A stretch of 64,000 nucleotides of DNA from Candidatus Thorarchaeota archaeon (GTDB lineage: Archaea; Asgardarchaeota; Thorarchaeia; Thorarchaeales; Thorarchaeaceae): positions 1 to 64,000 of the forward strand of contig SHMX01000009.1 in assembly GCA_008080745.1 (NCBI GenBank), in the 5' to 3' direction. The stretch's first letter is position 1. The number at the start of each line of letters is the position of its first letter. This document shows positions 40,124 to 48,243 of the stretch, one piece after another. The notes under the pieces were generated by a model, which saw only the letters and a list, made by a program, of their open reading frames with translations, ran no database searches and was not told the origin of the DNA. Position numbers and translations under genes: made by a program.

Positions 40124-40975
40124 CTAGGTGTTTTCAGCCCAAAATAATACTAGACCTGGGAAAACCTCAGAAACTCCATATCTTTTGAAATGTGCTTGGA
40201 TTAGTTTTGAGAGTTTCGAGCCCTCAATAACCCCCAGTTCTGGAAAGAGTTGAACTGAGGTTACACGGATGAATTCGCTCAAAGTTGGCTCTGTTGGCTC
40301 GTTAAAGAACACAAAGGGTGCAATAATTCGTAATATACCTTCAGAGGCTAAAACCCGTTTACACTCGAATATTATCCGTGGCAGCTGCTTCTGGTCCGGT
40401 ATTCCAGTAAGCCAAATCTCTTTGTATCTTCCTGTAGATATTGGCATATCTTGAGGTTCACCTTTGACGGATCGATGTTTGATATCATATTTTCTTAGTA
40501 TTGAAGTATCACCCATGGTTTCAATGATGCCTCCATTATTTCGCTCTACGAGATATTGTACAATATGCATATCCTGTTCTTTTAGTCTGGGTATTGCGAT
40601 GATCAGTGTTCTACCAATGGGGGAATCAAATGTCCTTTTACTAAGGTGTTCTTGGATGTTTTTAGTCAGTGTGCCTCTGTATGCATCATAAAAATGTAAG
40701 ACCACTTCGATTGCATCCTTCAGTATTCCCCGTAATCTGGCTTCACCTCGTGGCCCAATGGAATACACACGACGCTTCGGACCTGTGAGCCCCGGCTCCA
40801 TACTACTCTCAACTAGTCCCTCTGATTCCATCTCGTGAAGCCATCTGTATAATGTGGTTAGACGTATATTCTTGTCATATTCGCTAAGAGAATGAAGGAG
40901 GTCATATCCATGACATGGCATTTGGTCTAGAATCAGTAATATCTTATCTTTAAGAATCGCTCTAGAGGAACCCAT
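40124..40975 (-). CDS. PadR winged helix fused to a methyltransferase-like domain
   Basis: The 283-residue protein starts with a PadR-type winged helix (KDKILLILDQMPCHGYDLL, then TTLYRWLHEMESEGLV, residues ~9-90). The C-terminal half (about 115-283) resembles the Rossmann-like end of a SAM methyltransferase (EIWLTGIPDQKQLPRII, then RVLASEGILRIIAPF). The glycine-rich motif I is absent, so I expect ligand sensing rather than catalysis. It is convergent with the binding-protein gene. Confidence 0.6.
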   Translation of the reverse strand: MGSSRAILKDKILLILDQMPCHGYDLLHSLSEYDKNIRLTTLYRWLHEMESEGLVESSMEPGLTGPKRRVYSIGPRGEARLRGILKDAIEVVLHFYDAYRGTLTKNIQEHLSKRTFDSPIGRTLIIAIPRLKEQDMHIVQYLVERNNGGIIETMGDTSILRKYDIKHRSVKGEPQDMPISTGRYKEIWLTGIPDQKQLPRIIFECKRVLASEGILRIIAPFVFFNEPTEPTLSEFIRVTSVQLFPELGVIEGSKLSKLIQAHFKRYGVSEVFPGLVLFWAENT

Positions 40976-44178: not shown

Positions 44179-44553
44179 TTATAGTTCAAGCTTAGCTTCG
44201 TTCTTCCATAGGCCGTGAATATTACAGTATGATGTTGCCATAATGGTACCTGGTTTTTCAGTCTTGAATACAAATACTGCATATGGCTCAGAATACATCT
44301 TGCTGGTGTCTGCACCTTGTGTTGACTCACCATGATGGTCAAAGGTGTGGTAGCCTATCTCAACAGGAAACTTCTCTCCCTCGGGTAGGAAGAATGCATC
44401 AGCCCATTTAATATGATGTGCGGTTGTATTGGGGTGTGGTATTTCTTTTCCTACTGAAATAGTAATGTGAAACAAATTATCTCCTTTCTTCTCGATTTCA
44501 ATAACGGGTACGTGTTTTTCATTTTTCCAATCATCTGTTTGAATCCAGCTCAT
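44179..44553 (-). CDS. Superoxide reductase (neelaredoxin type)
   Basis: The 124-residue protein has the EKHVP start (Glu12, Lys13, His14), HPNTTAHHIKW (His40, His46) and CNIHG (Cys110, His113). These are the four His and one Cys that bind the catalytic iron, plus the proton-donating Lys. It lacks the N-terminal desulforedoxin domain. It reduces superoxide to peroxide in anaerobes. All ligands are intact. Confidence 0.92.
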   Translation of the reverse strand: MSWIQTDDWKNEKHVPVIEIEKKGDNLFHITISVGKEIPHPNTTAHHIKWADAFFLPEGEKFPVEIGYHTFDHHGESTQGADTSKMYSEPYAVFVFKTEKPGTIMATSYCNIHGLWKNEAKLEL

Positions 44554-44645: not shown

Positions 44646-46151
44646 TTATTTTGATATTTCTTCTAAGTGTGAGAGAGTCCATCTTCCTCTATCAGTCAAA
44701 TCATAGTACTTTCGAACTCTCTTTTCATGAGATCTCATTTCTTTTGTTTCTACTATTAGTCCCCCTCTGGCTAACTCACTAAGATGCTGATATACACTAG
44801 GAATTCTAACTTGTATTCCATATTTCTCATCCAACTGCTTCCATATTTCGTATCCGTAATTCTCATTCTTGGTGAGAATTCGTAATATGCAAACCTTTGT
44901 TCTTCCCAATTTTGTTGTGTATTTTCGCCCCTCTAATCTACTCAGAAGATGTACCAAATCTTTCCGTCCCTTCACAAAAGATTCTGCAATCTCTGGAGAC
45001 TTAAGACCACTGCCTGTTATTATGCAGATTACCGTATCAGTAGGGTCAATAATACCCTGGTCTACAAGTTTTTTGAGGGCAGCTATAGTGGTTGCAGATG
45101 CAGGCTCAGCAAAAACGCCTTCAAGTTTAGCCAACCGCCTTACACTATCTAATATCTCACTGTCCATAACAGTGATTCCCCTCCCTTTGGATTCTCTAAG
45201 TGCACGTAATGCTTTACTGCCACATACCGGATTGGCAACACCAATATCCATTGCCAATTTTGGTTTGCCTGTCGAGGGCTTGACCTCCGTATCTCCCCTT
45301 CGATATGCGTCTACTATTGGTGAAATCCCTTTGACCTGCGTTCCGATGAGTCGAGGAAGATTCCCCTCAATAAGACCCAATTCTTGGAACTCTATGAGGC
45401 CTTTCCATATCATTGAAAGATTTCCTCCACTTCCCATAGGTGTGAGTATCCAGTCTGGTAGTTTCCATTCCATTTGTTCACAGATATCAAATATCATGGT
45501 CTTTGTTCCTTCTAGGAAGGGAGGATTGTTGGAAGTTATGGGATGATATGTTGGTTCTCGTTGCATGGCGAGTGAGATAGCTTCTTCTCTAGTCCTTACA
45601 ATCTCAACATCTGCACCATAAGCAAGTATTTGGTAGAATTTACCTATGTCAACTCGTCCTCTTTGTGCCATGAATACCTTTGCATCAATTGCTGCTTTCG
45701 CTGCGTATGCTACTACAGAAGCTGCAAGATTTCCCGTTGAACCACAACAAATCTTGGTTCTATTGTTCTCTAAGGACACGGATACCTCAACACTACTTCC
45801 TCTATCCAAAAATGAACCTGTGGGATTTGTGGTTTCATTTTTCAAAAGAAGATTTCGAACACCTATTTCAGATGAGAGCAAATTGGCTGGATGCAGATAG
45901 GTATTGCCTTCTCCTAATGAGATGATATGTTTCTGATCCATTATGGGTAACAGCTCAGCATATTTCCAGACCCCACTAACTCTTTTCTTCAATGCCTTTT
46001 TGTCAAGTTTCCCCTTTAGAATCTCAAGATCATATTCTATTTCGAGAATCTCTCCACATTTATTGCAGGTTCTTAGAGATGATGTGCTTGGGTGTGTTCT
46101 TCCACACTTTGAACATGCAAGACCTCTTACAAAAGATGCCATCGTTCTCAC
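44646..46151 (-). CDS. Threonine-synthase-like protein lacking the PLP lysine, fused to a winged helix
   Basis: The 501-residue protein begins with a zinc-ribbon pair (CSKCG, CNKCG) and a threonine-synthase core up to ~residue 400, as in ThrC, with CGSTGNLAA and the phosphate loop GSGGNL. In the PLP motif NPTGSF-x-DRG the usual Lys is Leu115 (codon TTG at 45807-45809, two changes from AAG/AAA), so no internal aldimine can form. Residues ~415-501 are a PadR-like winged helix (VCILRILTKNENYGYEIWKQ, then SVYQHLSELARGGLIV). I read it as a metabolite-responsive DNA-binding protein, possibly sensing an amino acid or PLP. The divergent ECF S-component gene is its natural target. Confidence 0.75.
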   Translation of the reverse strand: MRTMASFVRGLACSKCGRTHPSTSSLRTCNKCGEILEIEYDLEILKGKLDKKALKKRVSGVWKYAELLPIMDQKHIISLGEGNTYLHPANLLSSEIGVRNLLLKNETTNPTGSFLDRGSSVEVSVSLENNRTKICCGSTGNLAASVVAYAAKAAIDAKVFMAQRGRVDIGKFYQILAYGADVEIVRTREEAISLAMQREPTYHPITSNNPPFLEGTKTMIFDICEQMEWKLPDWILTPMGSGGNLSMIWKGLIEFQELGLIEGNLPRLIGTQVKGISPIVDAYRRGDTEVKPSTGKPKLAMDIGVANPVCGSKALRALRESKGRGITVMDSEILDSVRRLAKLEGVFAEPASATTIAALKKLVDQGIIDPTDTVICIITGSGLKSPEIAESFVKGRKDLVHLLSRLEGRKYTTKLGRTKVCILRILTKNENYGYEIWKQLDEKYGIQVRIPSVYQHLSELARGGLIVETKEMRSHEKRVRKYYDLTDRGRWTLSHLEEISK

Positions 46152-46220
46152 CTATATATAGGCCTAGGGTTATATATTCCTAATCAATCGCAAGCTCGTC
46201 CAGTATTGGTGGTATTTCCT

Positions 46221-46808
46221 ATGGAAAAAATAAGTTCGAGCACAAAGAATTCAACAGTCTACATTGCCTTATTAGCAATATTTACTGCCCTTACTGCGGT
46301 CATAACTGCAGTAGTTGCAATCCCTTTTCCTACAACATCCGGATATCTTAATATTGGAGATATGATGGTCATGTTGAGTGGAATGCTTCTCGGTCCTGTT
46401 GGTGGATTGATTGCTGGAGGAGTGGGTTCAGGCATGGCTGATGTTGCTTTGGGATATTTGCCCTTTGCCCCAATTACGCTGATAGTAAAGGGGTTTGAGG
46501 GTTTCATTGTTGGATTGTTTAGTCTAAAATCGAAAAAGGCACAAAACCTCACAAGAATGGATGCAATTGGAATCGTCCTAGCCGCAATAGCAATGCTCCT
46601 AGGATACTTTGTATTTGAGAGTATATTATTCGGGCCAGTTGCAGCTTGGGAGGAGTTAGTTAGTATCAACTGGATTCAAGTTACTGTTGGCGGAATATTT
46701 ACAGGATTATTTGGTCCGAAGATTCGTTCATATTTGCATAATGCCTCAGTAACATTGGCAGAACCAGGCGAATATGAAGAGCTAGAACTTTCAGAAATCG
46801 ACGCTTGA
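46221..46808 (+). CDS. ECF transporter S component
   Basis: The ~195-residue protein has about five or six helices and the S-component pattern: GYLNIGDMMVMLSGML, then GGLIAGGVGSGMADV, and PITLIVKGFEGFIVGLF. S components bind vitamins or related compounds and work with an EcfT-EcfA module encoded elsewhere. Which vitamin is not clear. The start is ATG 46221 rather than GTG 46206. The gene is divergent, 69 bp away, from the threonine-synthase-like regulator. Confidence 0.8.
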   Translation: MEKISSSTKNSTVYIALLAIFTALTAVITAVVAIPFPTTSGYLNIGDMMVMLSGMLLGPVGGLIAGGVGSGMADVALGYLPFAPITLIVKGFEGFIVGLFSLKSKKAQNLTRMDAIGIVLAAIAMLLGYFVFESILFGPVAAWEELVSINWIQVTVGGIFTGLFGPKIRSYLHNASVTLAEPGEYEELELSEIDA

Positions 46809-46965
46809 AAACTGAATCGTTTTAGATATCGGAATTTGCAGTTTTCAAGATACTTCTGGAATGAAGATAGAAAACGAATATGTTCTTTCAGAATCGTTTT
46901 TTAATAATCAAGTATTGGACTATCTTGGCTTACTATCAGAGTCGAATTGATTGGAAGGTCTTGAA

Positions 46966-48243
46966 ATGGACAGAGAAAAGTTACGAATTGATGCCAAACA
47001 ACTCGAAGCCATAAACGATTTTCTCCTGAATGAAGATAATCCTTTGATTACTGATTTATTGGAGGTAATTGAAAAGTATGGTGGTGTTGATGAAATTAAT
47101 GGAAAAGCCGAGAAAGCAAGAAAGTTAGAGAATCTCCTAGCTATGTTAGAAGAGAAGGATTCTCCCTATTTAGAGGATCTTAGATGGCTTCAAGAACAAC
47201 GTGACAATGGTGCTTTCATTAGTATTTCCGATTATAGACGAAATGTTCTGGGCGATAAAGCTGACTCGGTGGAATTTGATGAAAGTTTTGCAGTCACCCT
47301 TGAGATTAGCGCCTGTCAATATTTCCCATGGCTCATTGAACAAGCTAAACAGGCAATTGAAAATCAAGAACTTATGCCTGCCCGCTTTATCCGCGTTAGA
47401 AAGATGAAGGAACAAACAGAAGATGATGATATTATTGCTTTTGCTGCTGCTATGCAGATTTTAGGAGCTTCATATGTCGAAACTTTGGATACAAAAGGTA
47501 CGGCCCCTGGACCTGATGGGGCACCTGTGAACATTCACCTCGGTGGTCCTGAGACCATCACTGGTTATTTTGGTGGAGTTGGTATGCCAAATGATTTTGT
47601 CATCAGGTGGGCAGATGAATTCCTTCACTACTATACCACTTATGGTGTAAAACAGGTTTTGAATATCAACCCTGGTAGTGTCCTTATCGGGTATATGATG
47701 CACAAAATGGGCATCGATATAGAGTTCAAAATATCGGTCTATATGGGAAATGATAATCCTTATGCATGTCTGTGGACTCTACTAACTGCCAAGTTATTCA
47801 GTCGTCCTGATGGAACCACATCTCTGATTGGTTTCAACCTATCTAACAGTGTTGACAATACCACTATTGAACTTGCATCCTTCATTCGGGGTGAGTTTGG
47901 TTTTGAAGATGTAGTACGACTAGAACATCATATCACTGAAACCTACAAGTCCATTGTCAGACAGCCATATGATAGGACCGAAGAACTCGTGGAGCTTGCG
48001 GATCATGTTAAGAACATAAGTGCCAAACACGAGGGTGGCATTCCTGAAATTGATGTCACACGTGAGCATCCAAGTGATATTCTCGATTACTTCCGTGATA
48101 AGAGTGAAATTGTAGAGTCTGGTGATATGCCTAAGATGCTGCGAAACTATCTTGACAAGCATCATGCTCTCAATCGCACTGCAGAAGAGTTGACAAAGAA
48201 AGGTCTTACCTTTATCGCAGCTCCAAAGCTGCACAAGAAATAG
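46966..48243 (+). CDS. Conserved-looking soluble protein, possible TIM-barrel, unknown
   Basis: The ~425-residue protein starts at ATG 46966 after GGAAGGT. A helical N-terminal ~110 residues is followed by an alpha/beta body. Motif-like stretches include GGPETITGYFGG, NINPGSVLIGYMM and GFNLSNSVDNTTIE. These look like ligand-binding turns of a barrel enzyme, but I cannot match a family. A perfect hairpin terminator lies just after the stop. Confidence 0.55.
   Translation: MDREKLRIDAKQLEAINDFLLNEDNPLITDLLEVIEKYGGVDEINGKAEKARKLENLLAMLEEKDSPYLEDLRWLQEQRDNGAFISISDYRRNVLGDKADSVEFDESFAVTLEISACQYFPWLIEQAKQAIENQELMPARFIRVRKMKEQTEDDDIIAFAAAMQILGASYVETLDTKGTAPGPDGAPVNIHLGGPETITGYFGGVGMPNDFVIRWADEFLHYYTTYGVKQVLNINPGSVLIGYMMHKMGIDIEFKISVYMGNDNPYACLWTLLTAKLFSRPDGTTSLIGFNLSNSVDNTTIELASFIRGEFGFEDVVRLEHHITETYKSIVRQPYDRTEELVELADHVKNISAKHEGGIPEIDVTREHPSDILDYFRDKSEIVESGDMPKMLRNYLDKHHALNRTAEELTKKGLTFIAAPKLHKK

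Follow-up and report, generated by a model that had tools for sequence, protein, structure and literature searches.

The window analysed here, a 64,000-nucleotide stretch of a Candidatus Thorarchaeota genome (GCA_008080745.1, contig SHMX01000009.1), carries on its reverse strand an open reading frame of 501 amino acids (44646-46151, counted from a GTG at 46151; stop codon 44646-44648). The frame joins a threonine-synthase fold that lacks the catalytic lysine to a PadR-type winged helix, and we predict that its product is a transcription regulator. Divergent from it, on the forward strand, lies the gene of an ECF S component (46206-46808, likely start ATG 46221), predicted to be a subunit of a vitamin B6 importer. 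The DNA between the two genes contains a predicted operator palindrome of 12 bp, CCTATATATAGG (46151-46162), and a TATA-box-like element, TTATATATT/AATATATAA (46170-46178), 28 to 36 nt from an ATG at 46142. This ATG is probably the true start of the regulator gene (coding sequence 44646-46142), because the GTG overlaps the edge of the palindrome and homologues have their first residue at the position of Met4 of the window protein. The initial annotation, made from the DNA letters alone, had described an S component 69 bp away; its identity and divergent orientation held, and the gap between the likelier ATG (46142) and that of the S component (46221) is 78 bp. Residues of the window protein are numbered below with the GTG as residue 1.

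Two Pfam domains make up most of the protein. Residues 77-380 match PALP (PF00291, E=4.4e-59), and a winged helix that had been placed at about 415-501 was recovered as PadR (PF03551, E=2.6e-16; 59.8 bits against a gathering score of 27) at residues 422-493 (44673-44888, reverse strand), where the AlphaFold2 model has helices and a wing. The best matches by both sequence and fold are threonine synthases (ThrC: PRK08197, TIGR00260; PDB 2zsj, 1uim, 6cgq), with which the protein shares the fold type II domain, an N-terminal zinc ribbon and the PLP-phosphate loop (GSGG, residues 240-243, 45423-45434). The ribbon (Cys13/16/29/32, 46047-46121) has cysteines that are invariant in groups A1 and A2, with one member (L073) lacking them. 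Unlike ThrC, the window protein has no Schiff-base lysine, has a changed residue 212 (Phe212, 45516-45518; Arg or Gln in most unfused Lys-bearing homologues), carries the extra winged helix and is linked to B6 genes. The NPTGSFKDRG motif of the enzymes reads NPTGSFLDRG in the window protein, with Leu115 (TTG, 45807-45809) at the position of the PLP Schiff-base lysine. This motif, the zinc pairs (C13/C16 and C29/C32) and the phosphate loop are as first described, and STGN (138-141, 45729-45740) is retained as well. It had also been argued that a single error is unlikely to explain Leu115, and this is borne out because a same-genus relative has Leu too; that relatives share non-Lys residues at this position rules out a sequencing or assembly error.

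We searched the window genome and 99 relatives for homologues and found dozens of fused (about 470 to 500 amino acids) and shorter, unfused matches. A further scan of genome contigs gave 80 more loci, from Thorarchaeota, Lokiarchaeota, Hermod- and Njordarchaeota, Bathyarchaeia, Thermoplasmata, Nitrososphaeria, Methanomethylicota, Brockarchaeota and others. After removal of duplicates the fused set comprised 109 distinct proteins, a count that, like those of the loci below, reflects simple gene calling on draft genomes from unequally sampled phyla. Lysine is absent from the Schiff-base position in 105 of the 109, its place being taken by Ile, Leu, Val, Met, Thr, Asn, Phe or Arg (mostly Ile/Leu or Arg), and it is kept in all 21 unfused homologues of our tree. 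Both the fusion and the loss of the lysine are thus conserved. The four fused proteins with Lys (L131, L136, L137 and L138; NPTNSFKDR) all belong to one family (f2), which appears to be Lokiarchaeal, and a strict one-to-one link between fusion and Lys loss was dropped on their account. Homologues with the lysine and no linkage to transporters had been named in advance as evidence against a regulator; these four do keep the lysine, yet they still adjoin the S gene, toward which they are convergent.

Our tree of the enzyme domain (a quick tree, left unrooted, built with the trait column left out) separates the 21 unfused, Lys-bearing proteins from the rest by a branch with support 97 and sets off the fused hydrophobic-type proteins by another with support 98. 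The Arg-type fused proteins form a clade with support 100, inside which the four Lys proteins lie. The simplest reading is one fusion followed by an Arg-to-Lys reversion, possibly to a sensor that forms a PLP aldimine. These four proteins, together with a pocket in which most residues are intact, could also be taken to mean that the fused proteins are still active or altered PLP enzymes that use the winged helix for another purpose, or bifunctional enzyme-regulators, as the Lokiarchaeal Lys members may be. We regard this as highly improbable, given that the residue in place of Lys cannot form a Schiff base in 105 of 109 proteins, that the Lys members branch within the Arg clade, consistent with reversion, and that Lys-bearing threonine synthases are present separately. 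Such genes, whose presence in the genome the initial annotation had put forward as a check, were found.

The fused proteins have kept the residues expected to hold the cofactor. Asn141, Gly240, Gly242 and Thr379, which we take to line the PLP site in fold type II proteins, are conserved in nearly all of them, Gly240 and Gly242 in every fused protein of the tree; the Asn of STGN presumably faces O3' of PLP, as in fold type II enzymes. At position 212 the 21 unfused proteins mostly have Arg (15) or Gln (5), and the fused proteins mostly have Phe, Leu, Tyr or Ile in the hydrophobic clade and Val, Ala, Thr or Ser in the Arg clade. Presumably, given the role that we assign to residue 212, the substrate-phosphate site has been lost and the cofactor site kept. 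The AlphaFold2 model of the window protein, a confident one (mean pLDDT 89), finds its best PDB matches among threonine synthases, including 6cgq, which was solved with a PLP-alanine adduct. Lysine mutants of fold type II enzymes hold external aldimines stably, which makes PLP or a PLP-amino-acid adduct a plausible ligand of the fused protein.

The S component belongs to PF07155 (E=4.3e-34; 118.4 bits against a cut-off of 26.7), the Pfam family of PdxU and HmpT (PMC9997740). When a profile of 41 members of the S family was searched against the PDB, the best relative was 4hzu_S (HmpT/PdxU2; E=1.2e-24, the next match having E=0.33), and 4hzu_S was also the best fold match of the AlphaFold2 model of the window S component (pLDDT 89; E=1e-5, TM-score 0.83 by target length). 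HmpT, the nearest solved relative by sequence and by fold, was found bound to pyridoxamine by mass spectrometry (PMC4860826). Of six HmpT pocket residues, Y120, N140 and Q143 are identical in the S family, E41 occurs as E/D, and H84 and Q87 correspond to Lys90 and Glu93; S136 of HmpT corresponds to Glu145, these changes being present in nearly all members. Because H84 and Q87 are Lys and Glu here, the substrate of the S family may differ from that of HmpT. Two EcfT-type genes with ATPases are present in the window genome, and two ABC ATPases follow the S gene in three loci. Note that no PF08543-type pyridoxal kinase above cut-off was found in the window genome, which we counted against a B6 reading.

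The S component also raises the question of a different vitamin, either the thiamine precursor HMP, to which HmpT was first assigned, or riboflavin, which appears in the Pfam name of PF07155 (ECF-ribofla_trS); in addition, ThiD-ThiN lies two genes upstream in one locus (L055). A regulator of either seems very unlikely to us. HMP salvage needs a ThiD-type kinase, and none over cut-off is encoded in the window genome, which speaks against an HMP role of the S component; its nearest solved relative is pyridoxamine-bound HmpT (PMC4860826), not RibU or ThiT; and the fused genes are linked to PdxS/PdxT, as follows. Next to the S component of the window, in most Thorarchaeial loci as well, lies the gene of a 430-amino-acid protein with no Pfam or NCBIfam match (46951-48243, forward strand), which could be a third B6-related gene or a case of local synteny.

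Members of one S-component family lie within 1.5 kb of 69 of the 109 fused genes, a linkage that is conserved across archaeal phyla. Forty of these S genes are divergent, all in the hydrophobic clade; in the Arg/Lys clade, 25 run in the same direction as the fused gene and 4 are convergent with it. In six loci without an S gene, PdxS with PdxT adjoins the fused gene (five divergent, one apparent operon), mostly in the same place that the S gene takes elsewhere, and one Asgard genome has S, PdxS and PdxT in a row. For about one fused gene in three, neither S nor PdxS is close by. Neither the window genome, which is 98% complete, nor any of 46 searched genomes of the same genus or family has PdxS; the S component is present in most of those 46. 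The absence of PdxS lends indirect support to B6 uptake by the S component. Across the genomes behind the named loci, linkage to S and possession of PdxS are anticorrelated: PdxS is present in 1 of 29 S-linked genomes and in 7 of 20 others (Fisher p=0.005, calculated on draft genomes with kinship ignored).

The initial annotation had left the ligand as PLP, an amino acid or a phosphorylated substrate. The evidence now points to vitamin B6/PLP, because the fused genes have PdxS/PdxT as their alternative neighbour, the S component resembles HmpT/PdxU2 and almost all S-linked genomes are without PdxS. A case can be made that the protein senses threonine, phosphohomoserine or another amino acid and controls an amino-acid ECF transporter, the parental substrate having been kept as the signal: the enzyme domain descends from threonine synthase, its retained PLP-loop residues could hold a phosphorylated ligand, and some ECF S components carry amino acids. 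We consider such a sensor unlikely, since the alternative neighbours are PdxS/PdxT rather than threonine genes, the S family is closest to HmpT, and the Arg/Gln at position 212 of the unfused proteins has been lost in both fused clades.

Some neighbours fall outside the S and PdxS pattern. In two loci (L049 and L051) that have no S gene and carry an exact operator at the regulator, an EamA transporter lies close by on the divergent side and is a candidate for an alternative B6 transporter. In two others (L061 and L071), where S and PdxS are absent nearby, the regulator is transcribed divergently from a nitroreductase-family gene. Directly downstream of the window regulator is a gene for a desulfoferrodoxin-type protein (44179-44553, reverse strand), which is conserved in Thorarchaeial loci.

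The palindrome at 46151-46162 sits between the TATA box of the regulator and its start codon, with the S gene on the far side of the TATA element, and CCTATATATAGG occupies this interval in most of the hydrophobic clade. No other site in the window matches when one mismatch is allowed (expected number 0.14). Of 67 promoters, those of PdxS-divergent loci included, 40 have a near-perfect site (0.67 expected), and in the variants CCCATATATGG, CCAATATATTG, CCGATATATCG and CTTATATATAAG the differences fall in both half-sites. A motif-free search for inverted repeats in hydrophobic-clade promoters returned gapless CCTATA/TATAGG in 23 of 65 (shuffled maximum 2); a TATATA-N10-TATATA pair with fixed spacing is found in 32 of the 65. 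Seven of 49 genomes contain the 14-mer GCCTATATATAGGC, each in a single copy that adjoins the start of the fused gene; the reversed 14-mer pattern, used as a control, gave three matches, in two other genomes. Against the operator reading we counted the AT-rich, TATA-box-like composition of the palindrome. The TATA-like element (46170-46178) is itself quasi-symmetric and may serve both divergent genes.

Conservation of the operator supports a regulatory role of the fused protein, and the position of the site between TATA box and start codon suggests that the regulator represses its own gene. Because the 14-mer is single-copy where present, a dedicated switch appears likelier than a wide regulon, which is disfavoured on the same ground. 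We rejected a common operator for both clades: none of the 42 Arg/Lys-clade promoters carries the one described here, and a search for a shared palindrome gave none. The window genome has a second exact CCTATATATAGG (L170, G000:C7:32394-32405) about 200 nt upstream of a gene for a TrpB-like PLP enzyme, which could be a second target or a chance match. Among unlinked PdxS promoters in genomes with the regulator, only one has an AT-rich stretch that bears a suggestive resemblance to the operator.

We therefore propose, with a probability of roughly three in four, that the fused gene encodes a PLP-sensing transcription regulator of vitamin B6 supply that acts through the palindrome at the shared promoter. 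A role of the fused family in B6 gene control is well supported; that PLP is the ligand, that the protein dimerizes and binds DNA, and the sign of regulation are what we infer. In this mechanism, the threonine-synthase (fold type II) domain without its catalytic lysine keeps most of the PLP pocket and would most likely bind PLP or a PLP-amino-acid aldimine non-covalently as the signal. A homodimer would double the PadR winged helix, which would bind CCTATATATAGG in the promoter shared by the regulator and the divergent S component, the predicted B6 importer. The genes of the PLP synthase, PdxS/PdxT, take the place of the S component opposite this regulator and operator in related genomes. With enough PLP in the cell, the promoter would probably be shut by the regulator. 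The original suggestion of an archaeal regulator built from a threonine-synthase fold and controlling uptake agrees with the conservation of the Lys-less fusion, the S linkage and the operator. Taking all lineages together, we find it reasonably probable that these proteins are an archaeal transcription-factor family (Asgard, Thermoproteota, Thermoplasmata) in which a dead threonine-synthase fold is the PLP sensor and a dedicated operator, single-copy in several genomes, controls B6 import or PLP synthesis, an independent counterpart of PdxR that comes with a so far unassigned archaeal B6 importer.

In bacteria, PdxR regulons include the genes pdxST, pdxK and pdxU; Archaea are reported to have no MocR factors (PMC5320631). 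The likeness to PdxR, of the MocR subfamily, lies in a DNA-binding domain joined to a PLP-enzyme fold and in PdxST and S-component neighbours. The construction is different: MocR/PdxR proteins join an N-terminal GntR winged helix to a fold type I aminotransferase, whereas here a fold type II domain precedes a C-terminal PadR helix, the Schiff-base lysine is lost and the host is archaeal. An origin independent of bacterial PdxR/MocR is the best reading. PadR-family regulators (PF03551) are alike in the winged helix, here C-terminal, and the palindromic operator, but here the sensor consists of an entire PLP-fold domain that precedes the helix. In a literature search, with most subscription journals outside its reach, we found no description of a threonine synthase-PadR fusion or of a fold type II transcription factor. 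The majority of prokaryotic B6 transporters have yet to be identified (PMC9997740). If our reading is correct, the family provides many archaea, close relatives of eukaryotes included, with both a B6 regulator and an importer of the vitamin, and explains how Asgard archaea without PdxS cope; the combination of PLP-enzyme fold and winged helix would then have been invented twice, from different folds.

The findings also bear on gene names. The NCBIfam model NF004170/PRK05638, called 'threonine synthase' (442 amino acids), spans the entire threonine-synthase and PadR architecture. It scores the window protein at 299.8 bits with Arg at residue 115, 297.6 with Lys and 295.3 with Ile; the other threonine-synthase models listed score Lys highest. 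An Arg-clade protein whose gene adjoins an S gene (L078) passes the PRK05638 cut-off (427 bits against 421). Because the model prefers Arg and accepts a protein encoded beside an S gene, it appears to describe regulators, and the name is probably wrong for Arg-type members. Judging from the model scoring, Sulfolobus members of PRK05638 would carry Arg at the Lys position. The database name is probably misleading, and Lys-less proteins that are counted as threonine synthases would distort metabolic reconstructions.

Two further genes of related architecture were noted. One genome has a fused-type homologue with nine in-frame stops (G095:C40:79448-80854), apparently a decayed second copy. Within the window, the protein encoded at 40124-40975 on the reverse strand is another PadR fusion, with an N-terminal PadR helix followed by about 200 residues of an apparently degenerate methyltransferase-type domain, and may be another case of a regulator derived from an enzyme fold.
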